Shown here piece after piece: positions 120 to 22,454 of a stretch of 64,000 nt of DNA. The notes beneath the pieces are model-generated. The model did no database searches. It was not told the DNA's origin and saw only the letters and a list, made by a program, of their open reading frames with translations. Origin of the DNA: Bacteroidota bacterium. Lineage in GTDB: Bacteria > Bacteroidota > Bacteroidia > Bacteroidales > UBA4417. Numbering within the stretch: position 1 is the stretch's first letter; each line of letters begins with the position of its first letter. Location of the stretch: positions 1 through 64,000 of the forward strand of contig JACAAZ010000014.1 of NCBI GenBank assembly GCA_013376995.1, written 5' to 3'. The position numbers were made by a program, and so were the translations under genes.

Positions 120-578
120 ATGAGCTGGGTAAGAGTATATATTCATTTGGTATTCTCAACAAAAAACAGAGAACCATTCTTAAATTCATCAGAAATCAGA
201 AAAGCTGTTTTTCAACATATCAAACAAAATGCGAAAGAGAAAGGTATTTGGCTTGACAGCGTCAATGGCTGGAATGATCATGCACATTGTTTGATCTCAC
301 TTGGGGGAGAACAAACCATAAGTAAAGTAGCTCAAATGATAAAAGGGGAATCCTCGTTTTGGATAAATCATAACAACATTATAAATAACAAATTTACCTG
401 GCAAGATGATTTCTGGGCTGTAGGTGTGAGCGAAAGAAACGCACAGTCAGTAAGAAATTATATTCATCGCCAGGAAGAACATCATAATAAAGAATCTTTC
501 ACCAAAGAAGTAAATGATTTTATGGTTAAATACGGATGGAGTTATGTTCAAGAGGCTGATCAAAAAACGACTAGTTGA
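120..578 (+). CDS. IS200/RAYT-like Y1 transposase
   Basis: This 152-residue protein has the size and motifs of the Y1 HUH transposase family (IS200/IS605 TnpA and REP-associated tyrosine transposases). The HUH pair is in 'NDHAHCLI' around residues 51-58, and the catalytic tyrosine with its glutamine is in 'NYIHRQEEHH' near residue 113. The opening 'YIHLVFSTKNREP' is also typical. Such enzymes cut single-stranded DNA at hairpins and do not leave target duplications. No accessory tnpB is present, which favours a stand-alone RAYT or IS200-type copy. The ORF looks intact. The gene lies at the window edge and is transcribed toward the end of the flox operon, with a terminator-like hairpin between them. 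Confidence 0.85.
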   Translation: MSWVRVYIHLVFSTKNREPFLNSSEIRKAVFQHIKQNAKEKGIWLDSVNGWNDHAHCLISLGGEQTISKVAQMIKGESSFWINHNNIINNKFTWQDDFWAVGVSERNAQSVRNYIHRQEEHHNKESFTKEVNDFMVKYGWSYVQEADQKTTS

Positions 579-717: not shown

Positions 718-1557
718 TTAGTATTCGTCAGGCAGCTGTTTAAGCTGTGTCCTGGTAAATACAGGCCCGTCCTTGCATACGAATACCTTGCCCACGTTGC
801 ACCTGCCACATTTACCAAGGCCGCACTTCATTCTGTTCTCAAGAGTAGTATAAACCTGCTCATCAGTGAATCCATATTTCTCGAGCACAGGGAAGGAGAA
901 TTTTATCATCACAGGAGGTCCGCAGACAATAGCGATAGTATTTTCACTCACGGGCTTTATCTTATCAAGAATGGTTGGAACAAATCCGACTTCTCCCTTC
1001 CATCCCGGGGTTTCTCCACCCGGATCGACAGTCAATACCAGGTTCACATCCGGACGGTTTTTCCATTCCTCCAGTTCATGCTTGTAAACAAGGTCATCAA
1101 CCGAGCGTGCTCCATATAGAATCGTAATATCCTTGAATTGATCCCTGAGATCAAGGCATGTCCAGATCACGCTTCGCATCGGTGGCAAGGCTATTCCACC
1201 TGCAATGAACAATAGGTTCTTCCCTTTCCATTCATCTATCGGGAAAATGTTGCCATAAGGGCCCCGGAATCCAATTGTGTCACCTTCCTGTAAACTTGCA
1301 AGTTCCGAGGTAACTCTTCCAACCTGCCTGAACGTGCATTCAATATATCCTTTACGGGTATGAGGAGAAGCAACGCAGAAAGTCACTTCACCTTCACCGA
1401 AAACGGAATACTCTCCAAATTGACCGGTCCTGAAGGAGAAATTGTTGGCTTCTTCTTCATTGGTGAACTTCAACCTGAATGTTTTGACCATTGGTGCCTC
1501 CTCAGTGATCTTCTCGATCTCCATGAGGTAAGGCTGGTAAATATTCTGTTGCTCCAT
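718..1557 (-). CDS. floxA: FloxA-like FAD/NAD(P)H oxidoreductase subunit
   Basis: A protein of about 279 residues of the ferredoxin-NADP reductase superfamily, resembling AsrB and hydrogenase gamma subunits. It has an N-terminal flavin-binding barrel ('QFGEYSVFG'), an NAD-binding part with 'LLFIAGGIALPPMRS' and 'CGPPVM', and a C-terminal iron-sulfur motif with cysteines at about 245, 250, 253 and 261. In the known flox-hdr clusters this subunit takes electrons from NADH and feeds HdrABC. I place the start at the ATG at 1557, one base after the floxB stop, which suggests translational coupling. A TTG at 1572 would add five residues and overlap floxB. It is the last gene of the seven-gene operon. 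AsrB of a sulfite reductase is the alternative, but asrC is absent. Confidence 0.8.
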   Translation of the reverse strand: MEQQNIYQPYLMEIEKITEEAPMVKTFRLKFTNEEEANNFSFRTGQFGEYSVFGEGEVTFCVASPHTRKGYIECTFRQVGRVTSELASLQEGDTIGFRGPYGNIFPIDEWKGKNLLFIAGGIALPPMRSVIWTCLDLRDQFKDITILYGARSVDDLVYKHELEEWKNRPDVNLVLTVDPGGETPGWKGEVGFVPTILDKIKPVSENTIAIVCGPPVMIKFSFPVLEKYGFTDEQVYTTLENRMKCGLGKCGRCNVGKVFVCKDGPVFTRTQLKQLPDEY

Positions 1558-1558
1558 A

Positions 1559-2581
1559 TTATTGTAATGCAATTGAAGTTAAATGTTCTTTAATATTCAT
1601 GTCGACGGGGCATGCCCTTGAACACCTGCCACAACCTTCACAGCCTAATACTTTTAATTGTTCAGGCATATAGGAGAATTTATGCATAATTCTCTGCCTC
1701 CATCGCTGGCTTTGCACTTCCCTTGGATTATGTCCGGATGTGTGCAGAGTGAAAAGTGAGAATCCGCAGGAGTCCCAGAGACGAAGGCGAACACCCTTTT
1801 TAGTATTCTGTTCATCCTGGAAATCGAAGCAGGCACAAGTCGGGCAAACAAATGCACAGGCTCCGCAGCCAATGCACCTGAGTGACTGATCAAGCCAAAG
1901 TTCAGCACTGTTAAAAGCAGCAGTTGTATTGCTGATTACTTTGTCGAGGTCAAAAACAACCTTAACATCAGCAAGGAACTTTTCCTTATCGATGGAGGGA
2001 GATGCATCAGTTAGCAAGTCATTAAATAATCCGGATAATTTCTTGCCTTTTTCCGTAAGTATCTCAACCAGTAACTCATCCTTGCTGATAGCAGTGAACT
2101 GGATATCACTACCGGCAGTATATCCTGGTCCGCCTCCAACAGAAGTGCAAAAGCAGTAATCGTCAGCTGTTGGGCATGAAAAGGAGATGATGGTTGTCTT
2201 TTCCTTCTTGTTGAGATAGAATGCATCAGACGGAGCTTCTCCAAATATTGCATCCAGTGACTTGAATCCGGAAGCATCGCATGGTCTGACTCCAAAAAGT
2301 ATGGTTTCAGCATAAGCATTTGGATCAATAGCTGTCTGTTTAACTGCTGCTTTCTCCAGTGTATATTCAAGCACTTTTTCTACTTTCGGAAAAGCAGCTT
2401 TTTTAGCTGATTGGGTTGAAAGCAAGACATCCAACGCGATTGTATCGAGTGTATCTACAGGCTCAATCTCGATCACTTTTCCTTTTTGAACAGGAGCGAG
2501 TACCGGAAAACCCTTTGAGCGAAATCTTTCAATTAGTTTAGAAAGATCGCTGTATTTCAGTATTTTAAGTTCTTTATCCAT
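1559..2581 (-). CDS. floxB: FloxB-like 4Fe-4S dicluster protein
   Basis: A 340-residue cytoplasmic iron-sulfur protein related to AsrA and hydrogenase beta subunits. The N-terminal 220 residues carry the family segment 'GVRPCDASGFKSLD' and cysteines around 'YCFCTSVGGGPG'. Two ferredoxin-type motifs follow: 'CIGCGACAFVCPTCACFDF' near residues 234-252, with extra cysteines after the cluster motif, and 'CEGCGRCSRACPVD' near 310-323. Its role would be to pass electrons between the FloxA flavin and FloxC/FloxD. It lies 3 bases after floxC and is 1 base from the preferred floxA start. Confidence 0.8.
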   Translation of the reverse strand: MDKELKILKYSDLSKLIERFRSKGFPVLAPVQKGKVIEIEPVDTLDTIALDVLLSTQSAKKAAFPKVEKVLEYTLEKAAVKQTAIDPNAYAETILFGVRPCDASGFKSLDAIFGEAPSDAFYLNKKEKTTIISFSCPTADDYCFCTSVGGGPGYTAGSDIQFTAISKDELLVEILTEKGKKLSGLFNDLLTDASPSIDKEKFLADVKVVFDLDKVISNTTAAFNSAELWLDQSLRCIGCGACAFVCPTCACFDFQDEQNTKKGVRLRLWDSCGFSLFTLHTSGHNPREVQSQRWRQRIMHKFSYMPEQLKVLGCEGCGRCSRACPVDMNIKEHLTSIALQ

Positions 2582-2584
2582 CGT

Positions 2585-3388
2585 TTAGATAATGAAATTT
2601 TCCTTATCATCAGGTTTAAAAGTGGAAAGCGCATAAACTGCATCAGCCTTCATTCCCGCAGTTGCTCCAAATCCGGTCTTGATAGGATCGATAAGCTGGT
2701 ATGTTAGAAGGTTGAGTGGTATGTCCATTGGACAAGCATTTGCACATTCACCGCAATTGATGCATCTTCCTGCCAGGTGCATGGCACGCATGAGATGGTA
2801 ATCAAGGTTGCCACGTTCATGGCTTGCAACCGGGATCCATTGAGGTTGGTTGACATCCGTAGTACACCTGTGGCAATAGCACATGGGACAGGCTGCCCGG
2901 CAGGCATAGCATTTTATGCATTTCTCGAATTCCTTGTTCCAGAATTCCCAGCGCTCTGACACAGACATGGCTTCGATCTTTTCGATCCTTGCTTTTTCAT
3001 CAGGAGTAATATCAATATTTGCTTTCTCCAGAAATGCCTCGATCGACTGGAAATCACTGAATTCAGTGAGGCTTGCGTCATCATTTACAAACAGGATATA
3101 AACCTCCCCATCCTTGATCTGAAATTCGGAGGCCAATTGCATTATGCTCCTTAAAGCTGCAACATTGGCCAGAATCCCAAGCTTTCCAAGGTGTTTGACT
3201 TCGTGCTTGAGCAGGTATCCTGACAAGTTAAAAGTACAGGCAGGTGTATATATCAGCTTTGAAGCCTGTTCAACTGTCCTGGCAAAAATTGCACGGACTC
3301 GATCAGTTGATCCTTGCCCGTATCCGATAAAAGCATCTATCGTTTTATCGTTCAGTAACTTGGTTACTTTATTTATCAGTTCATTCAT
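2585..3388 (-). CDS. floxC: FloxC-like ferredoxin-type subunit
   Basis: A 267-residue protein with two 4Fe-4S motifs. The first, 'CIKCYACRAACPMCYCHRC' near residues 154-172, has three cysteines beyond the usual four. The second is 'CINCGECANACPMD' near 208-221. The N-terminal 140 residues have no cluster motif but contain a lone cysteine in 'TPACTFNLSG'. Order and size match FloxC of sulfate reducers, an electron wire between the NADH module and the Hdr module. The start overlaps the floxD stop by 8 bases (ATGAATGA). Confidence 0.75.
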   Translation of the reverse strand: MNELINKVTKLLNDKTIDAFIGYGQGSTDRVRAIFARTVEQASKLIYTPACTFNLSGYLLKHEVKHLGKLGILANVAALRSIMQLASEFQIKDGEVYILFVNDDASLTEFSDFQSIEAFLEKANIDITPDEKARIEKIEAMSVSERWEFWNKEFEKCIKCYACRAACPMCYCHRCTTDVNQPQWIPVASHERGNLDYHLMRAMHLAGRCINCGECANACPMDIPLNLLTYQLIDPIKTGFGATAGMKADAVYALSTFKPDDKENFII

Positions 3389-3839
3389 GGTTGCTGACCT
3401 CCTCCTTCAATAAAGTGGAAACTGCAATCTTGTTATAATTTTCATAAGGACCCATTTCCCTGATCTTTGCTACAGTATTGTTGACTACGTCAGCCCATTT
3501 GAATCCCTCAGCGGCTGAAACCCAGCTGAACAGGATACGTTCAGTGTCAATGCCTGTGAAGTTCATGAGATTCCTGAATACAATCCAACGCCTGCGTGCA
3601 TGGAAATTTCCAGTGCTGTAATGGCAGTCATTAGGATGGCAACCGGAAACGATGATCCCGTCTGCCCCATTTTCAAAGGCTTTCATCAGGATCATAAAGT
3701 CAATCCTGCCAGTGCATGGGAAACGGATGATCTTCACATTGGCTGCATACTTGGTCCTGCTTGTACCTGTTAGGTCAGCGCCTGCATATGTGCACCAGTT
3801 GCACACAAAGGCTACTATTTTAGGTTCAAAATCCTGCAT
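3381..3839 (-). CDS. floxD: FloxD / MvhD-like electron-transfer subunit
   Basis: A 152-residue protein of the MvhD (hydrogenase delta, 2Fe-2S) family. It shows the family's conserved cysteine segments: 'CNWCTYAGADLTGTSR' near residues 13-28, 'RFPCTGRID', and 'GCHPNDCHYSTGN' near 80-92. In methanogens MvhD delivers electrons directly to HdrA. Here it sits between hdrA (11 bases upstream) and floxC (8-base overlap), exactly where a bridge between the two modules is expected. Confidence 0.9.
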   Translation of the reverse strand: MQDFEPKIVAFVCNWCTYAGADLTGTSRTKYAANVKIIRFPCTGRIDFMILMKAFENGADGIIVSGCHPNDCHYSTGNFHARRRWIVFRNLMNFTGIDTERILFSWVSAAEGFKWADVVNNTVAKIREMGPYENYNKIAVSTLLKEEVSNHE

Positions 3840-3850
3840 GTTGCTATCAA

Positions 3851-5851
3851 TTAATCGTTCAACAAAGCCATTACTTCAGTATATACCTGCTGGTTTGAAT
3901 ATCCATGAATGTCGATAGCCTTGGTGCGGCACAATGCTACACAGGTTCCACATCCCTGGCATAAGCCTTCATTTACTTTGGCCAGCGTTTTGATCACCTC
4001 CCCATTCCTGTTCTTGATTTCTTCCCGCTCAATAGCCTGGTATGGACATACACTTTGGCAAAGGAAGCAACCAACACAGGATGAGAATACAGGAGGAGCC
4101 TGCCTGTTTACTACAGCAATTAATGGCTCTCTTGTGAGTTCATCATTACTAAAGAGCGCTGCTACCTTTACTGCAGCTCCAGAGGCGGCGGCAACAGATT
4201 CAGGAATATCCTTGGGAGCCTGGCAGGCACCTGCAAGGAATATACCTGCCGTATTGGTTTCAACAGGTTTAAGTTTGGGATGTGCTTCAGCAAAGAATTT
4301 GTAAGCATCATAGGAAACATGAACAGTTTGGGCCAAAGCCTCAGCACCGTGATTTGCAACGCCTGCAGTTGCAAGAACTACCATGTCGGCTTCAATCTCA
4401 ACAGGCTCAGCACCCATGAGGGTATCAGCCCCCTTAACTATCAGTTTACCATTCTTTTCATAAATGGTAGATACACGCCCGCGGATATACTGGGTTTCAT
4501 CCTCTACAATGGCTCTGCGTACAAATTCTTCATACATTTTGCCACCGGCACGGATGTCCATATAGAACACATAGGGCGTTCCGTCATGAACCTTATGTTT
4601 GTAAAGCATAGCGTGCTTTGCCGTATACATGCAGCATATTTTTGAGCAATACTCAATACCTTTTGCTGGATCGCGAGATCCCGCGCAGGCTACAAATACG
4701 ATCTTCTTGGGGATCTGTCCGTCAGATGGCCTGCGAATTTCACCCATAGTCGGACCGGATGCAGAAGCCAGGCGCTCAAACTGCAAACCATCAATTACGT
4801 CCTTGTATTTGCCATAGCCGTATTCAGGGAAGAAATCAGATTTCAATACGTCAAAACCGGTTGCAAGAACAATAGCCCCTGCTTCAATTTCTACCAGTTC
4901 ATCTTCCTGGTCAAACCTGATAGCTTTGGTAGGACAAACAATTTCACAAACCTTACACTTTCCTTTGATATAGTAGGTGCAGTTTTCACGATCGATCACC
5001 GGCTTATTGGGAACTGCCTGGGGAAAAGGTACATAAATGGCTGGCCTGAAACCAAGGCCACGTTCAAATTCATTTGGGATCTTCTTTTGAGGGCATTTTG
5101 TCGTGCAAAGGCCACAACCTGTGCAAAGATGTTCATCCAGGCTTTTTGATTTCTTTCTTACGGTTATCTTAAAGTTGCCGATAAAACCATCTACTTTTTC
5201 AACCTCGGCATAAGTATACAGGGTAATATTGGGATGCTGGGCGATCTCAACCATCCTGGGAGTAAGAATACACTGTGAACAGTCGAGGGTTGGGAAGGTC
5301 TCTGATAATTGTGACATATGTCCCCCGATGGATGGTTGCTTTTCAACCATTACTACTTTATGTCCGCAATTTGCAATATCCAGTGCAGCCTGTATTCCTG
5401 CAACTCCGCCTCCGATAACAAGAGCAGTCTTGGTAACAGGAACTTTAATTGAATTGAGGGCTTTATTCTTTTTAACCTTTTCAACCATAACCCTGACGAG
5501 ATCCTCAGCTTTCTCAGTTGTGAGGTCATCCTTAGGGTGCACCCAGGAGCAATGCTCACGGATGTTTGACATCTCGCAGAGGTATGGGTTCAGGCCGGCT
5601 TCTGAGCATGCTTTCCTGAACGTAGGCTCATGCATACGAGGGGAACAGGCTGCAACAACGACACCATCCAGTTTATGTTCCTTAATGGCCTCTTTAAGCA
5701 TGGTCTGACCAGGGTCGGAACACATATATTTATAATCAGTACTGAATTCTACCCCTTTCAGCTCCTTTGATATTTGGGCAACTTTCTCGCAATTGACGGT
5801 GGCTGAAATATTCTCACCACAGTGACAAACAAATACTCCTATCCGCGACAT
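3851..5851 (-). CDS. hdrA: HdrA-like bifurcating flavoprotein
   Basis: A 666-residue HdrA-family protein, full length for the family. The N-terminus has the 'VCHCGENI' motif (C9, C11) and 'ACSPRMHEPTFRKAC'. A FAD-binding Rossmann motif 'VIGGGVAGIQAALD' lies near residue 145, followed by 'CSQCILTPRM'. Four ferredoxin-type motifs are readable: 'CTGCGLCTTKCP' near 245, 'CKVCEIVCP' near 300, 'CVGCFLCQSVCP' near 595 and 'CQGCGTCVALC' near 632. HdrA FAD is the site of flavin-based electron bifurcation in methanogens. Here it would receive NADH electrons through FloxD and split them between HdrB's disulfide site and ferredoxin. The gene begins 2 bases after hdrB. Confidence 0.9.
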   Translation of the reverse strand: MSRIGVFVCHCGENISATVNCEKVAQISKELKGVEFSTDYKYMCSDPGQTMLKEAIKEHKLDGVVVAACSPRMHEPTFRKACSEAGLNPYLCEMSNIREHCSWVHPKDDLTTEKAEDLVRVMVEKVKKNKALNSIKVPVTKTALVIGGGVAGIQAALDIANCGHKVVMVEKQPSIGGHMSQLSETFPTLDCSQCILTPRMVEIAQHPNITLYTYAEVEKVDGFIGNFKITVRKKSKSLDEHLCTGCGLCTTKCPQKKIPNEFERGLGFRPAIYVPFPQAVPNKPVIDRENCTYYIKGKCKVCEIVCPTKAIRFDQEDELVEIEAGAIVLATGFDVLKSDFFPEYGYGKYKDVIDGLQFERLASASGPTMGEIRRPSDGQIPKKIVFVACAGSRDPAKGIEYCSKICCMYTAKHAMLYKHKVHDGTPYVFYMDIRAGGKMYEEFVRRAIVEDETQYIRGRVSTIYEKNGKLIVKGADTLMGAEPVEIEADMVVLATAGVANHGAEALAQTVHVSYDAYKFFAEAHPKLKPVETNTAGIFLAGACQAPKDIPESVAAASGAAVKVAALFSNDELTREPLIAVVNRQAPPVFSSCVGCFLCQSVCPYQAIEREEIKNRNGEVIKTLAKVNEGLCQGCGTCVALCRTKAIDIHGYSNQQVYTEVMALLND

Positions 5852-5853
5852 GG

Positions 5854-6771
5854 TTAAGCCTCCATTTTTTCAGGGTTAGCAACTTTTTTGGATACTTCTG
5901 CGGGTTCTGCATTTTTAACCGGCTTGTCAGGCAGGATAACTTCCGTCATATGCCTGTTTAATCCGAGTGTTTTTGCATCTAACCCAACTGCCAGCCCAAG
6001 TACCTGTGAAATATAGAGTACGGGCATTGAAATCTTTTCATCCAGGTATTTGTTGATTTCCGGGCGGCGCATATCCAGGTTCGAATGACACATTGGGCAT
6101 GCAACTACCATAACCTCAGCTTTTCGGTCAGAGGCATCCTTCAGGATATCCCCTGATAACCTGGCAACTGTATCAGTGCGGGATACTGACATACCTGCAC
6201 CGCAACATTCAGTCTTGAAAGCCCAGTCGATGGCATTGCCTCCGGATTTCTTGACCAGCACATCCATACTTTGGGGATCTTCAACACGGTCAAAATTCAG
6301 GATTGCATGAGGCCTGACTAAAAGGCATCCATAATAGCAAGCTGTATTGTAATTGAAAGGTTTAACAACTTTCTCCTCTAATTTATCAGTGATATATTTG
6401 TCGATAAACTGAATGATATTGAGAATATTTGTTTTCCCGCTGTATTTCAGATCGATGATGCCGGTTACTTTTGAACAGAGGCTGGCATCTTCGGCTAGTT
6501 CGTGTTTTGTTACTGATAACCTGTTGTAACAAGCAGCACAGGGAACGACTATATCAGTAATTCCTTCTTTCTCGGCCAATGCCATAATACGGGCAGGAAG
6601 GCTCAATGAGAGTTCCTTGTTCAGATTGTGGGCAGCAGTTGCTCCGCAACAGTTCCAATCGGGTATTTCGACTAATTCGATGTCAAATACCTTGGCAAGT
6701 GCAACCACGGATTCCTGGTATTCACGGGCTCCACCTTTCATGGAACAACCTGGATAGAATCCTATTTTCAT
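5854..6771 (-). CDS. hdrB: HdrB-like disulfide reductase subunit
   Basis: A 305-residue protein with two intact CCG domains. The first has 'YPGCSMKGG', 'WNCCGATAAH' and 'PCAACYNR'; the second has 'ACYYGC', 'ECCGAGMS' and 'CPMCHSNLD'. In HdrB of methanogens these cysteines bind two non-cubane [4Fe-4S] clusters that cleave the CoM-S-S-CoB disulfide. The physiological disulfide here is unknown: Bacteroidetes are not known to make CoM/CoB, and no dsrC is in the window. The C-terminal 40 residues are lysine and glutamate rich and look like a disordered tail. The start overlaps hdrC by 4 bases (ATGA). Confidence 0.9.
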   Translation of the reverse strand: MKIGFYPGCSMKGGAREYQESVVALAKVFDIELVEIPDWNCCGATAAHNLNKELSLSLPARIMALAEKEGITDIVVPCAACYNRLSVTKHELAEDASLCSKVTGIIDLKYSGKTNILNIIQFIDKYITDKLEEKVVKPFNYNTACYYGCLLVRPHAILNFDRVEDPQSMDVLVKKSGGNAIDWAFKTECCGAGMSVSRTDTVARLSGDILKDASDRKAEVMVVACPMCHSNLDMRRPEINKYLDEKISMPVLYISQVLGLAVGLDAKTLGLNRHMTEVILPDKPVKNAEPAEVSKKVANPEKMEA

Positions 6772-7346
6772 AGTTTTACCTCCTTATTATTCTGAACTCT
6801 GTTAAATATTTCAGCAATCTTTTTTCTTCCCTTGATGATCTCTGGTATGGGATTTAGTTTGCCTTTGACAAACATTTTAGGAGCAATCATTACATCCTGT
6901 GTCATAGCGCCTGTCCTCATCTTATAGTCCACAACCATTCCCATTTCGTACAAACGCCCGGTATAATTGATAGAATCGAGGAAGGACTTATGGAAAGCAA
7001 TTATCTTTTTGGCTTGAGGATTCGTTTTCTTAGCCCTGACTGACTTCTGCCTTAAATTATCCATTAACCTTGGTATGTCAATCTCCATCGGGCAACGTGT
7101 GAGGCACATCTCGCAACTTACACAAAGCCATATGGTCATGGATTTCAGAAGCTTATCATAGTTTTTGGGGTCGTCAGTCTGTAACATGCGCATGACCAGG
7201 CTGGGAGGATAGTCCATTTCAGAACTCAAAGGACAACCCGCAGAACACTTGCCGCATTGGTAACATTTATTAATAATAACACCGGTATCCATCCGTAATT
7301 CACCACTCAGGGTCATTGGGTGGTGCTGATCATGTGAAGCGGACAT
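6768..7346 (-). CDS. hdrC: HdrC-like 4Fe-4S subunit
   Basis: A 192-residue protein with two 4Fe-4S motifs, 'CYQCGKCSAGCPLSSEMDYP' starting at residue 28 and 'CVSCEMCLTRCPMEIDIP' near residue 75. This is the standard HdrC architecture, which relays electrons from HdrA to HdrB. It is the first gene of the seven-gene operon. A TAnnTTTG box lies 72 bases upstream. No membrane segment is visible, so the complex should be cytoplasmic (HdrABC type, not HdrDE). Confidence 0.9.
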   Translation of the reverse strand: MSASHDQHHPMTLSGELRMDTGVIINKCYQCGKCSAGCPLSSEMDYPPSLVMRMLQTDDPKNYDKLLKSMTIWLCVSCEMCLTRCPMEIDIPRLMDNLRQKSVRAKKTNPQAKKIIAFHKSFLDSINYTGRLYEMGMVVDYKMRTGAMTQDVMIAPKMFVKGKLNPIPEIIKGRKKIAEIFNRVQNNKEVKL

Positions 7347-18094: not shown

Positions 18095-18889
18095 TTATTT
18101 AGACAAATTTGCCTGCCTGCTGCCGAATAACAGGTCAAATGACGGCCAGAGTTGCCAGTGATTTCCGAATGGATAACTTCCATAGGTTAAAATATATCCG
18201 CCCTTGATAGTCAGCTTTTTACCAAGCTTCCAGAAGATATTTCCACTATTTTCAGCATTAAAATTCGTTTCATTCCTGGTAACAAAAAATAACCTGATAT
18301 TTTCTTCATAATTCCAATTTTTTAATATCCTTCCCTGGAAAGATGAGCCCACCCGAATGGAAACACCCTTATAATACTGAGCCATCCTGGGGAAAAAAAC
18401 AGGCAGGTCAATAGTAGCCATCGGGTCTATCTTTCCTGTTCTCAATGCTAGCGCAAATCCTCCGGTTAACGAAATAATACCAAGATCATTTATTGTTTTT
18501 GATGCAATTATTCCAGAGTTGATACCTAGCATAAATGGAAAATCAAATTCAGGAGAAATCAGTCCCCCGGTTCCTTTGCGGCTTACTGTGTTAAGGAAAG
18601 CGGAAGGAATGCTCAGTTGATGCTCGCTGCTTACAAGAAATCCGGAATATGATCCAAGCCGGACTTTTATTCCAAGGTTAGGCATTAAAGGCATCAGTAA
18701 TATATTTGAATTTATTTCAAGCTTTTCACTTAATCCATATCTGAAGGGCTGTAGCAACCCGCTTTCCCATTTGCCTTTTTGCATCAGACTGGCTGTATGG
18801 TAACTGCCGCGGGTGAATGGTAATTCTGACTGGGCCATCAAAGAGCCTAAAATGAAGAAATTGATGAGAAATATATACAGATGTTTCAT
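18095..18889 (-). CDS. Exported protein, possible outer-membrane barrel
   Basis: The ATG at 18889 gives a signal peptide ('MKHLYIFLINFFILGSLMAQ'). The mature protein of about 245 residues is rich in alternating aromatic and polar residues and glycine ('GKKLTIKGGYILTYGSYPFG', 'GVSIRVGSSFQGRILKNW'), as in an outer-membrane beta barrel. I recognise no named family. It follows the EEP-fold lipoprotein gene by 47 bases on the same strand and may be co-transcribed with it. Confidence 0.6.
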   Translation of the reverse strand: MKHLYIFLINFFILGSLMAQSELPFTRGSYHTASLMQKGKWESGLLQPFRYGLSEKLEINSNILLMPLMPNLGIKVRLGSYSGFLVSSEHQLSIPSAFLNTVSRKGTGGLISPEFDFPFMLGINSGIIASKTINDLGIISLTGGFALALRTGKIDPMATIDLPVFFPRMAQYYKGVSIRVGSSFQGRILKNWNYEENIRLFFVTRNETNFNAENSGNIFWKLGKKLTIKGGYILTYGSYPFGNHWQLWPSFDLLFGSRQANLSK

Positions 18890-18936
18890 TTTTAACAGGC
18901 TAATTATTTTTATCACGTAATTAAAATCAATTTGGA

Positions 18937-20061
18937 TTATTCACTTTTCAATACGAATCTTGAGCTAACTGCAGCATGGTCTGATAAGGTCAATGCATAT
19001 TGATGCGTTATTGCCGAGTTGGCAACCCACTGAAAATTTGTGAACAGATAGTCGAGCGTGCGATCCCAAAAGTGTCCGGGCCTGGTGGTATGAGTAAAAT
19101 GTTCCAGCTGGTGTTGTTTAAATTCTTCCAGGGGGAAAGCACAGGTATAATTGTCATAGATCGGACGCAGCCATTCCGCTTCCGGAGTGTAGTTACTGCC
19201 TGCTTTATGCTGAGGGTCATCGCCCGGTTGATGATATGATTCACCGGGGCATTTGTCTTCCATGCAAAAATCAGTGGAATCACTTCCGGGAGGAAGTGTG
19301 TTGAAATCGCCACCGGCAACGAAATATTCTCCCAATGCATCCCTTTTGTCAAGTTCAGCTTTGAATTCCTCAAAATGCCTATGCTTTGTATCATCGGTTG
19401 CAAATGCAGATGCATGCAGGTTTAGCAGGGAGAATTCCTTGTATCCCGGAATATGTACTTTAGCTGTTACGATGCATGAATGCAGGTAAAAATAATTGAC
19501 AATCCCGGCCTGGTCGCCTCTTGTGGCCAGGTTAATCCTTTTGGAATCAGTTAATGGCCATGGGGAAAGAATAACAAGGCCCATATCCATCCTGCCTAAT
19601 CCATCGCTGGGGATAAATTCAGATTTCCATTCAGAAACATAGGCTGCATAGTTGAAATAGGTATTATCCAGTATGTACTGAAGTTCATTAATGTAACTTG
19701 TTCGTTTGGAGTTCACATCACATTCCTGCAGGAACAGGATATCAGGGTGCACGGAATCTATTTGTTTAACAATTGCCTCAAGGTGTGGCATAACTTCCTC
19801 CCTGGTGAAAAGTGTATTATTCCCGCAGGCATCTCCAAACCAGGAGTCCCGTCCGATACTGAATCGGATGTTCCAGGTCATCACAGTAATTGCGGCAGTA
19901 TCCAGTTGGGGTGGATCCTTAATCTTTGAAGCTGTATACATAACTGCGTTTTCTTCGCGGTCAAAGCTGGTTGCGAGCGGCTCACAAGAGGAGAACAGCA
20001 GCAATATCAGTATAAATGCGAGCAAGCTATTAGCCTGTGATTTTAATTTGATAACATTCAT
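18937..20061 (-). CDS. Endonuclease/exonuclease/phosphatase-fold lipoprotein
   Basis: A 374-residue protein with an N-terminal lipoprotein-type signal (lipobox-like 'LLFSSC' near residues 21-26). The EEP superfamily motifs appear in order: 'VMTWNIRF' near 60, 'LFLQECD' near 112, 'GGDFNTLP' near 253 and 'LSDHAAVSSRF' near the end. The family cleaves phosphodiester bonds in nucleic acids, inositol phosphates or sphingolipids. The substrate cannot be read from sequence. The location is predicted to be periplasmic or outer-membrane anchored. It is divergent from the FG-GAP gene. Confidence 0.8.
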   Translation of the reverse strand: MNVIKLKSQANSLLAFILILLLFSSCEPLATSFDREENAVMYTASKIKDPPQLDTAAITVMTWNIRFSIGRDSWFGDACGNNTLFTREEVMPHLEAIVKQIDSVHPDILFLQECDVNSKRTSYINELQYILDNTYFNYAAYVSEWKSEFIPSDGLGRMDMGLVILSPWPLTDSKRINLATRGDQAGIVNYFYLHSCIVTAKVHIPGYKEFSLLNLHASAFATDDTKHRHFEEFKAELDKRDALGEYFVAGGDFNTLPPGSDSTDFCMEDKCPGESYHQPGDDPQHKAGSNYTPEAEWLRPIYDNYTCAFPLEEFKQHQLEHFTHTTRPGHFWDRTLDYLFTNFQWVANSAITHQYALTLSDHAAVSSRFVLKSE

Positions 20062-20210
20062 AGTTACATCATTTATTTGGTAAACATACTGAAAAATTGA
20101 GAAATCCGTATTTCTACCGGAGTGATTAATTTGCCGACCTTTGTAACCAACGAGCGGAACTTATTTCATCAAAAGATCTTCCCTGAATTTTACAAAGAAT
20201 TGAAAAGACC

Positions 20211-22454
20211 ATGAAATCCCGACTCTTCTTCTTACTGATATTCGGGTATTCAATCCTGGGATATTCACAGTCCGGGCCTTTATCTATTTTTAATCCCTCC
20301 CAGGTCCCTGTTCTGAATCTCAATGGTGATACACTTGAATATCCATTCGCAGGCGGGCTGAATAACTGTCAATTCGGCAGCATTGACCTGAATATGGACA
20401 ACATTAAGGATCTGATCGTTTTTGACAGGCATGGAAACCGGGTGTTGCCATTTATCAATAACAACATTCCCGGAACTATCAGTTATTCCTATCGCCCTGA
20501 ATTTGCCTCTGAATTGCCTGCAATAAGCCAATGGATAGAATTGCTTGATTATAACGGGGATGGAAAGGAGGATATTTTTACTTATACGACCGGCGGAATA
20601 AAAGTGTTCAGGAATGAAAGCTCAACTTCCCTCAAATTCAGGCAGGTTAGTTTCCCTTACCTGCTTTCCATGCAGGGAAGCACACTTACGAATATCCTTG
20701 TAACCTATGCTGATTACCCTGCAATCGTTGATGTAGATGGTGATGGAGATATGGACATACTGACCTTTTGGGGGTTGGGGTCATTTGTTGAATGGCATAA
20801 AAATATGTCAGAAGAATATTACGGAAATGCTGATTCGCTTGTATTTGTAAAATCATCTACTTGTTGGGGGCGTTTCGCTGAGGGAATTGAATCGAATGAG
20901 ATCAAGCTGGATACCTGTATTGATTTTGGCCAGAAGACTTTAAAGGATTCTGATCCCAAACATACCGGGTCAACCTTATTCGCAAATGATTTCAACCAGG
21001 ATGGAATCATAGATATGGCAATAGGAGATGTTGATTTCCCGGAAGTAATTGAGCTAACCAACAGTGGATCTCAGGATACAGCAATAATGACAGCGCAGAC
21101 AACCAATTTTCCCGGCACTGAACATCCTGTTTATCTTACTTCTTTTCCTGCTATTTGTTCTGCTGACGTAGATAATGACGGAATTAAAGATCTTCTGGTC
21201 TCTTCATTTGACCCAAGCCTCGTCAGATCCCAAAGTGACCATAGCAGCTGGTTATACCTGGCTTCAGCTGATAAAACAATGAATGGCCTATCCTTCCAAT
21301 TCTTGCAGGATGATTTTCTCCAGGATCAGATGATTGATATGGGATCAGGTGCTTATCCTTTATTCTTTGACTTTGATGCTGACGGGTTGCAGGACCTGGT
21401 TATCGGGAATTACGGACAACTTGATTCAAGCTGGATTGATCCAACTTATGGGTTGCAATGTTCTTATATTTCTACTCTTGCCCTATTCAGGAATGTTGGG
21501 ACTGCTGAAAAGCCCGCTTTTCAATTGATAACAAGAGATTACCTCGGACTCAGCAGCCTTGGGATGCAATCCCTCGTTCCATGCGCTGGAGATTTGGATG
21601 GAGATGGAGATACTGATTTGCTTATTGGAAATTCGAAAGGGAAGCTTGTTTACTTTGAAAATACTGCAAATGCCGGCGCACCTGCAAATTTTGTGATGAA
21701 AGATCCTGCTTTTAAGCAAATTGATGTAGGCGATTTTGCCGCACCCCAGCTGATAGACCTGGATAAGGATGGATTAACAGATATTGTTTGCGGAAGGCGT
21801 GACGGGCAACTGAGTTATTACCGAAACACTGGCCCGCAATCCAATCCTGAATTTGAAATAGTCACTGATTCGCTGGGAGGTGTTGATGTTACCAATACTG
21901 CATTGTCTTATTTTGGTTACAGCGTGCCTTACTTTTACCGCGGTAAGGATCAGAGAACTGCATTGTTGGTAGGCTCAGAATTTGGTGAGATATTCTTATA
22001 TGCTGCGATTGATGGTAACCTGGACGGGAAGTTTTTGGCAGAAGGAACAATCGCCGGTATCAATCCGGGGTGGAGATCATCTGTTGCTTTAGCTGACCTG
22101 GATTCGGATCATTTCCCTGATATGATGGTTGGGAATTATTCCGGAGGATTGAACTATTACAGGGGCACAGAGGAAACCCCTTTTGGAATCGCGGATGAGG
22201 GTTTGTCAGCTCCGCCAGGAATGGAACTTTCACCTAATCCTTCGACGAAAAAGGTTCTGATAAACCTTTCTGCTTATGAAATAGGTAGAGCAGATTTGAG
22301 AGCAATGCAGGTTGATGGGAAACAAGTTGCACAACTTAAAGACATCCAATTTCCTTATGTATTGGATATCTCGAAGTATAAAACAGGATTCTACCTTGTA
22401 CAAGTATTAACCGGCAAAGGCATTATTACCGGGAAGATGATAAAGGTTAATTGA
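20211..22454 (+). CDS. FG-GAP/VCBS repeat protein with T9SS sorting domain
   Basis: A 747-residue exported protein with a signal peptide ('MKSRLFFLLIFGYSILGYSQ'). The body holds at least eight FG-GAP/VCBS-type calcium-binding loops, for example 'DYNGDGKEDI', 'DVDGDGDMDI', 'DFNQDGIIDM', 'DFDADGLQDL', 'DLDGDGDTDL' and 'DLDKDGLTDI', consistent with a beta-propeller. The last 80 residues form a type A type IX secretion sorting domain ('ELSPNPSTKKVLINL' to 'GKMIKVN'). It is therefore predicted to cross the outer membrane by T9SS and be attached or released at the surface. Ligand unknown. No enzymatic domain is visible. Confidence 0.85.
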   Translation: MKSRLFFLLIFGYSILGYSQSGPLSIFNPSQVPVLNLNGDTLEYPFAGGLNNCQFGSIDLNMDNIKDLIVFDRHGNRVLPFINNNIPGTISYSYRPEFASELPAISQWIELLDYNGDGKEDIFTYTTGGIKVFRNESSTSLKFRQVSFPYLLSMQGSTLTNILVTYADYPAIVDVDGDGDMDILTFWGLGSFVEWHKNMSEEYYGNADSLVFVKSSTCWGRFAEGIESNEIKLDTCIDFGQKTLKDSDPKHTGSTLFANDFNQDGIIDMAIGDVDFPEVIELTNSGSQDTAIMTAQTTNFPGTEHPVYLTSFPAICSADVDNDGIKDLLVSSFDPSLVRSQSDHSSWLYLASADKTMNGLSFQFLQDDFLQDQMIDMGSGAYPLFFDFDADGLQDLVIGNYGQLDSSWIDPTYGLQCSYISTLALFRNVGTAEKPAFQLITRDYLGLSSLGMQSLVPCAGDLDGDGDTDLLIGNSKGKLVYFENTANAGAPANFVMKDPAFKQIDVGDFAAPQLIDLDKDGLTDIVCGRRDGQLSYYRNTGPQSNPEFEIVTDSLGGVDVTNTALSYFGYSVPYFYRGKDQRTALLVGSEFGEIFLYAAIDGNLDGKFLAEGTIAGINPGWRSSVALADLDSDHFPDMMVGNYSGGLNYYRGTEETPFGIADEGLSAPPGMELSPNPSTKKVLINLSAYEIGRADLRAMQVDGKQVAQLKDIQFPYVLDISKYKTGFYLVQVLTGKGIITGKMIKVN

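Follow-up and report, generated by a model that had tools for sequence, protein, structure and literature searches.

We analysed a 64,000-nucleotide stretch of DNA (the window) from a Bacteroidales genome, which forms the initial 64 kb of contig C6 in a 5.05-Mb assembly of 43 contigs that is 96.7% complete. Seven minus-strand genes at window positions 718-7346 form one tight operon, hdrCBA-floxDCBA (hdr-flox), as seen in the list of open reading frames (ORFs) and in domain searches. With moderate confidence, we consider it probable that the encoded Hdr-Flox proteins carry out NADH-driven electron bifurcation to ferredoxin and to a disulfide other than DsrC, and that the ferredoxin is re-oxidised by an 11-subunit complex I. 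The operon alone is ordinary; the interest lies in the evidence on its partners. A link between Hdr-Flox and the 11-subunit complex I in Bacteroidales was not found in the open-licence literature searched. The genes, which the initial annotation had named as a complete operon in agreement with ORFs, Pfam and NCBIfam, are as follows:

6768-7346, minus strand: hdrC, 192 amino acids (aa), with two [4Fe-4S]-type motifs (C28-38 and C75-85)
5854-6771, minus strand: hdrB, 305 aa, with two complete CCG motifs
3851-5851, minus strand: hdrA, 666 aa, with an FAD domain and inserted and C-terminal ferredoxin-type clusters
3381-3839, minus strand: floxD, 152 aa, MvhD/FlpD family
2585-3388, minus strand: floxC, 267 aa, FdhB-like subunit for electron transfer, carrying two [4Fe-4S]-type motifs plus additional conserved cysteines
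1559-2581, minus strand: floxB, 340 aa, sulfhydrogenase-beta-like iron-sulfur subunit
718-1572, minus strand: floxA, NAD(P)H/FAD/[2Fe-2S] subunit, ORF called from TTG

Association of hdr-flox with an 11-subunit complex I

The genome carries two complex I operons, an 11-subunit form (nuo11, nuoABCDHIJKLMN without nuoEFG) at ~474.3-485.2 kb of contig C1 and a 14-subunit form with nuoEFG on contig C41. The former belongs with the NuoEFG-less enzymes of Bacteroides fragilis (NUO) and Desulfitobacterium hafniense (Nuo), and is a candidate partner of Hdr-Flox, not its homologue. In PMC7002350, the B. fragilis enzyme showed no NADH activity and its donor is named unknown. PMC11238625 likewise calls the donor of the D. 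hafniense 11-subunit complex an open question, and its main text holds no word starting with hdr or flox.

The two systems co-occur strongly. In a set of 149 genomes (the genome itself, 15 congeners and 133 others), the 11-subunit-type NuoL was found at a cut-off of 1e-100 in 22 of 24 flox-positive genomes versus 36 of 125 others, and in 12 of 13 versus 34 of 120 once the genus itself was removed. FlpD matches without an adjacent FloxC were left out of the flox-positive class; these comprised a group at 180-190 bits, whose loci were read, fused HdrA-FlpD proteins, and a group at ~95 bits, of which few loci were read before exclusion. A sample of 393 genomes drawn evenly from the order, which overlaps the first set, gave 43 of 44 genomes with flox-type HdrA versus 106 of 349 others (cut-off 1e-150; Fisher p 3e-19). 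All counts given here are uncorrected for kinship. Counted per family, the figures are 27 of 28 versus 36 of ~90, where family totals of 117 and 120 were assumed and genomes without a match were incompletely listed. Flox-type HdrA here means at least 57% identity, and HdrA at 45-48%, the sole type in five genomes, was excluded before the two-by-two count. Half of the 44 (22) show genes of the flox set, whole or partial, next to hdrA, and the remaining half were assigned by HdrA identity. Broken nuoL genes may be missed at either cut-off.

In several relatives the two operons are physically joined. The closest arrangement is that of genome G109, where hdrCBA is followed after 70 bp by nuoABCDHIJKLMN and then by floxDCBA, all on a single strand. 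In three genomes (G084, G270 and G250) nuoA lies ~100-210 bp past floxA on the same strand, with floxD and floxA apparently frameshifted in the G084 assembly, and in G143 floxA, a PF01180 (dihydroorotate-dehydrogenase-like) gene and nuo11 follow one another on one strand. The operons are divergent in loci L088 and L090, 276 and 289 bp apart, with nuoA and nuoB alone visible before the sequence end in L088; in G115, G224 and G370, all of one family, they share a strand at ~8-10 kb with other genes between them. Neither nuoE nor nuoF had a match in these linked stretches, and G109 shows a weak NuoG-like match past floxA on the opposite strand. Since the HdrA of G250 falls in the Ignavibacteria branch of the HdrA tree, the joining of hdr-flox and nuo is not a single inherited block. 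Across the 43 genomes with both HdrA and NuoL, the two lie within 15 kb of each other in eight and on the same contig but at least 23 kb apart in seven. The proximity p is ~1e-8 when 8 of the 43 are counted at 20 kb or less; it assumes 4-Mb genomes and independence, the latter broken by related genomes.

Clustering of the flanks of 47 Bacteroidota loci, at least three of them duplicates of one contig, places complex I genes in up to five and many other clusters in three or four each. A PF01180 gene stands near floxA in six of the 47 (L065:3982-5019, L066, L070, L071, L080:7129-8163 and L094), and in one of these six it sits between floxA and nuoA.

Several observations weigh against a partnership with the 11-subunit enzyme. 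HdrA and NuoL lie on different contigs in 28 of the 43 genomes, this one included, and no nuo genes were seen beside hdr-flox loci of non-Bacteroidota in flanks of up to 9 kb. The 14-subunit-type NuoL, defined by a 41-45% cross-match and with nuoEFG confirmed by reading in G000, G006 and G013, is enriched too (15 of 24 flox-positive genomes versus 4 of 125), and the 14-subunit operon stands near hdr-flox in the congeners G006, G007 and G013. In addition, 106 genomes of the order sample carry nuo11 and no flox-type HdrA; hdr-flox is therefore not the sole donor. In G343, an HdrA of the other type (47% identity) lies ~5 kb from the 11-subunit NuoL (C22:11352-13304 and 18317-20230), its flox-type HdrA being on another contig.

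Because the 14-subunit NuoL is also enriched, some of the association with nuo11 could stem from a respiratory way of life common to these genomes. Taken to its full extent, this would mean that anaerobic respiration and the usual clustering of energy genes bring the two operons together with no special partnership, which would also suit the 35 of 43 genomes in which the two loci were not seen within 20 kb. We regard this as unlikely, though it is the alternative that fares best: several distinct arrangements join hdr-flox and nuo11 in at least five families, one has nuo inside the hdr-flox operon, and another pairs nuo with an HdrA that falls in the Ignavibacteria branch.

Other ferredoxin partners were also sought in the genome. 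Rnf was rejected as the sink, as the best RnfC match in the assembly (97% complete) scored 43 bits and fell short of the 246-bit cut-off. Hydrogenases are present: six matches to PF02906 ([FeFe]) and one to PF00374 ([NiFe], on contig C1) pass their cut-offs, such that the initial annotation's reading of no hydrogenase in the window holds there at most and does not extend to the genome. The [FeFe] hydrogenases are rival ferredoxin partners and count against complex I as the sink. Two of the loci, L191 and L192 (G000:C39 and C1), have NuoE/F/G-like genes near the hydrogenase match and possibly encode the bifurcating type. Such enzymes, together with the reverse running in fermentation described for Desulfovibrio vulgaris, fit a complex that mostly runs backwards or acts as a redox valve, with ferredoxin and a thiol reducing NAD+ or with ferredoxin, NADH and H2 linked through [FeFe] hydrogenases in fermentation. 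By itself this would leave both the complex I association and the operon sharing unexplained, and we think it rather improbable. We favour the 11-subunit complex I as the ferredoxin sink of Hdr-Flox. A closer union, in which Hdr-Flox docks on the NuoBCDI arm in place of NuoEFG as the electron-input device of the 11-subunit enzyme, is a speculative prospect to which we give little credence; if true, a bifurcating NADH/disulfide module would power a proton pump directly, without free ferredoxin.

DsrC and the disulfide partner

The disulfide had been left open by the initial annotation, and the choice can now be narrowed. The genome-wide dsrC search that it proposed yields a single DsrC-family gene, at C41:21915-22208, whose C-terminal tail has the last cysteine only and no cysteine 11 residues before it. 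Among 32 DsrC loci, 16 have two cysteines, 14 have one, and two were left unread. DsrC shows no association with hdr-flox in the 149-genome set (6 of 24 flox-positive genomes versus 34 of 125 others), and it is absent from all 15 congeners, although ten of them carry hdr-flox. Named loci led to ten hdr-flox genomes, of which Chlorobium sp. N1 alone has DsrC. The sulfite reductase domain PF01077 had no match in the assembly (control matches in 11 of 14).

Because of the one-cysteine tail, the absence from congeners, the lack of association and the missing sulfite reductase domain, DsrC is disfavoured as the Hdr-Flox disulfide here. That the complex uses DsrC as its partner, following the proposal for sulfate reducers, is very unlikely in our judgement, even though the genome does hold a DsrC-family gene beside SQR-like, DUF1641 and DrsE_2 genes, and three of the 24 flox-positive relatives (G084, G109 and G143) have a two-cysteine DsrC. 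The genome thereby differs from the DsrC-linked Hdr-Flox setting of sulfate reducers, in having neither a detected sulfite reductase domain nor a two-cysteine DsrC. To our knowledge, coenzymes M and B, the thiols of methanogens, are not expected in a bacterium.

Two regions around DsrC deserve description. In this genome (L002:5917-8737), DsrC adjoins PF07992 (SQR-like), DUF1641 and DrsE_2 genes, a cluster that recurs in G143 (L082). In L081 (G084:C47:76000-95900), a stretch of ~12 kb brings together distant HdrA-like proteins, which we take to be Qmo-like, a two-cysteine DsrC and an FlpD that is likewise distant; the region possibly serves dissimilatory sulfur metabolism.

Subunit identities and distribution of the operon

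The cluster motifs of the operon are intact, as had been read from the sequence at the outset. A motif scan finds the two CCG motifs of HdrB as CX31CCX35CXXC and CX39CCX34CXXC, and Pfam likewise shows two CCG stretches. The ten cysteines (C9, 41, 42, 78 and 81, and C149, 189, 190, 225 and 228) align with those of the solved HdrB 8rvu_b, and we take them to be ligands of noncubane clusters. The CX2CX2CX3C motif occurs twice each in HdrC, FloxB and FloxC, and HdrA has three copies together with one CX7CX2CX3C. FloxA has a [2Fe-2S]-type motif and, in Pfam, FAD, NAD and Fe-S domains. The check gave no ligand list to FloxD, which has five cysteines.

Profile and structure matches agree with these assignments. 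HdrA scores 786 bits against the NCBIfam HdrA2 model over residues 3-664 and matches the solved HdrA 5odc_A at E 8e-207; both HdrA and HdrB align over nearly their full length to solved HdrABC chains. HdrC scores 57 bits against CoB-CoM HdrC in NCBIfam, and the MvhD-like FloxD 163 bits against FlpD in Pfam. A point against the HdrB assignment is that its top NCBIfam score is to SdhE of fumarate reductase (168 bits) with CoB-CoM HdrB at 158; these NCBIfam values are all below the curated cut-offs. FloxC draws generic ferredoxin matches only in Pfam, while a profile search matches it to the FdhB-type subunit of Hdr complexes. Its AlphaFold model (predicted local distance difference test score, pLDDT, 88 overall and 55-63 for residues 171-190) best matches chain E of the formate dehydrogenase-Hdr complex 7bkb, at a query template modelling (TM) score of 0.70, and chain E of the Elp-Hdr complex 8rvu at 0.64, with a root-mean-square deviation of 10-11 Å in both cases. 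Three further FloxC cysteines, C170, C172 and C175, which follow the first [4Fe-4S]-type motif, are invariant in 34 aligned sequences and could possibly form a third metal site.

The seven proteins thus resemble methanogen HdrABC-MvhADG and formate dehydrogenase-Hdr complexes (5odc, 7bkb and 8rvu), with homology over the length of HdrA and HdrB, the MvhD family shared, and FloxC resembling the FdhB-type subunit. They differ at the point of electron input, which here is the NAD(P)H module FloxAB and in the methanogen complexes is a hydrogenase or the catalytic subunit of formate dehydrogenase. By sequence, the nearest solved relative of FloxA is the gamma subunit of Pyrococcus sulfhydrogenase I (9nez), and that of FloxB is the beta subunit; unlike that enzyme, none of the seven operon proteins contains the [NiFe] large-subunit domain PF00374 in Pfam. 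MetF likewise had no match among the seven in Pfam or NCBIfam, a genome-wide search for metF or metV not having been made. From sequence, the operon may be read as an NAD(P)H module, an FdhB-like adaptor (FloxC), MvhD and an HdrABC core. That FloxA and FloxB are instead AsrAB of a sulfite reductase is a negligible prospect: the distant homology gives 198 bits for AsrB against a curated cut-off of 289 and 137 for AsrA against 323, other models outscore both (PRK08345 254.6, ShyB 147), PF01077 is lacking, and the genes share an operon with HdrABC-MvhD. AsrAB was rejected on these sub-cut-off scores and the missing sulfite reductase domain. Of the two outcomes named at the outset as overturning the assignment, a phylogeny grouping FloxA and FloxB with AsrAB was assessed through profile scores and not through a tree, and a loss of cluster ligands was not seen.

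The subunit set is that described for D. vulgaris and Bilophila wadsworthia, a likeness drawn from descriptions and not from sequence comparison; the B. wadsworthia order has been written hdrCBA-flxDCBA. PMC7382037 terms Flox-Hdr an uncharacterised syntroph-associated complex, and a 2019 paper describes the set as widespread among anaerobic bacteria. Our locus scan, with one genome per species, bears out this breadth, so that the earlier phrase "established in sulfate reducers" draws the range too tightly. Of 551 confirmed loci, the best 80 were kept, and in 29 of these all seven genes are labelled in the order of the window (including L146, with hdrB split). Many of the rest are truncated at contig ends or affected by ORF conflicts. 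The same arrangement is found across Bacteroidota, Ignavibacteriota, Chlorobiota and Geobacter-type genomes, with loci in Bacteroides oleiciplenus, Dysgonomonas sp. HGC4, Segatella paludivivens, Ignavibacteria, Chlorobiaceae and Geobacteraceae, among others; Alistipes sp. dk3624 has hdr-flox without a labelled floxD. In D. vulgaris the genes may run flox first. In the HdrA tree, which has open forks and long branches, the window groups with four Bacteroidota metagenome-assembled genomes (MAGs) at support 100, and the wider group of 42 rows comprises 27 Bacteroidota, nine unassigned and six MAGs labelled as other phyla. The best loci and this tree confirm the Bacteroidetes-like host proposed initially. 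From this spread and placement it follows that the operon is unremarkable within a widespread, known family. Judging by its title, Ramos et al. 2015 is the founding Hdr-Flox paper.

Two side observations concern other loci. L091 comes from a MAG under the title Bacteroides fragilis, but its HdrA and the one in G052 are identical, and the MAG may be a mislabelled bin. In Chlorobiaceae-type loci (L118, L121, L122, L125, L126, L140, L141, L148 and L158), a ~500-aa protein occupies the HdrB position with no separate HdrC labelled, and is perhaps an HdrB-HdrC fusion.

Within the operon, gaps between ORFs range from -14 to +11 bp. The -14 bp gap at floxA arises because its ORF is called from a TTG start; floxA ORFs of relatives start at an ATG five codons inside it, and this downstream ATG appears the likelier start. 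Promoter and terminator scans gave about as many matches as expected by chance (17 versus 15.7, and 7 versus 6.4). One further feature occupies the contig edge, separated from the floxA end by 139 bp:

120-578, plus strand: IS200-like Y1 transposase (PF01797)

Proposed electron path and its meaning

For D. vulgaris and B. wadsworthia, Hdr-Flox is proposed to oxidise NADH and to bifurcate the electrons to ferredoxin and to a disulfide. For the present operon we infer NADH specificity, bifurcation and its direction, the ferredoxin sink and the kind of disulfide, building on the observed genes, motifs, homology, gene order, distribution and linkage in relatives. The products would form a soluble Hdr-Flox complex in which the FAD of FloxA is the site of NADH oxidation; the preference for NADH over NADPH would follow, by analogy, what has been published about the complex of D. 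vulgaris. The [2Fe-2S] cluster of FloxA would hand the electrons to FloxB, from which they would reach the flavin of HdrA by way of FloxC, the FdhB-like adaptor, and FloxD; the flavin would split the pair. One electron would travel through the HdrA ferredoxin domains to ferredoxin, and the other through HdrC and the two HdrB clusters to a disulfide other than DsrC. The 11-subunit complex I, which lacks NuoEFG, would then most likely oxidise the reduced ferredoxin in these Bacteroidales, yielding menaquinol and a proton gradient. Against this scheme stands that no activity reports for hdr-flox of this clade were found in the literature searched.

In the order sampled, the presence of a flox-type HdrA almost implies an 11-subunit complex I, and some genomes join both operons. 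The evidence on partners speaks against DsrC as a general Hdr-Flox partner in this group, and it makes Hdr-Flox a concrete electron-donor candidate for some of the complex I enzymes that lack NuoEFG.

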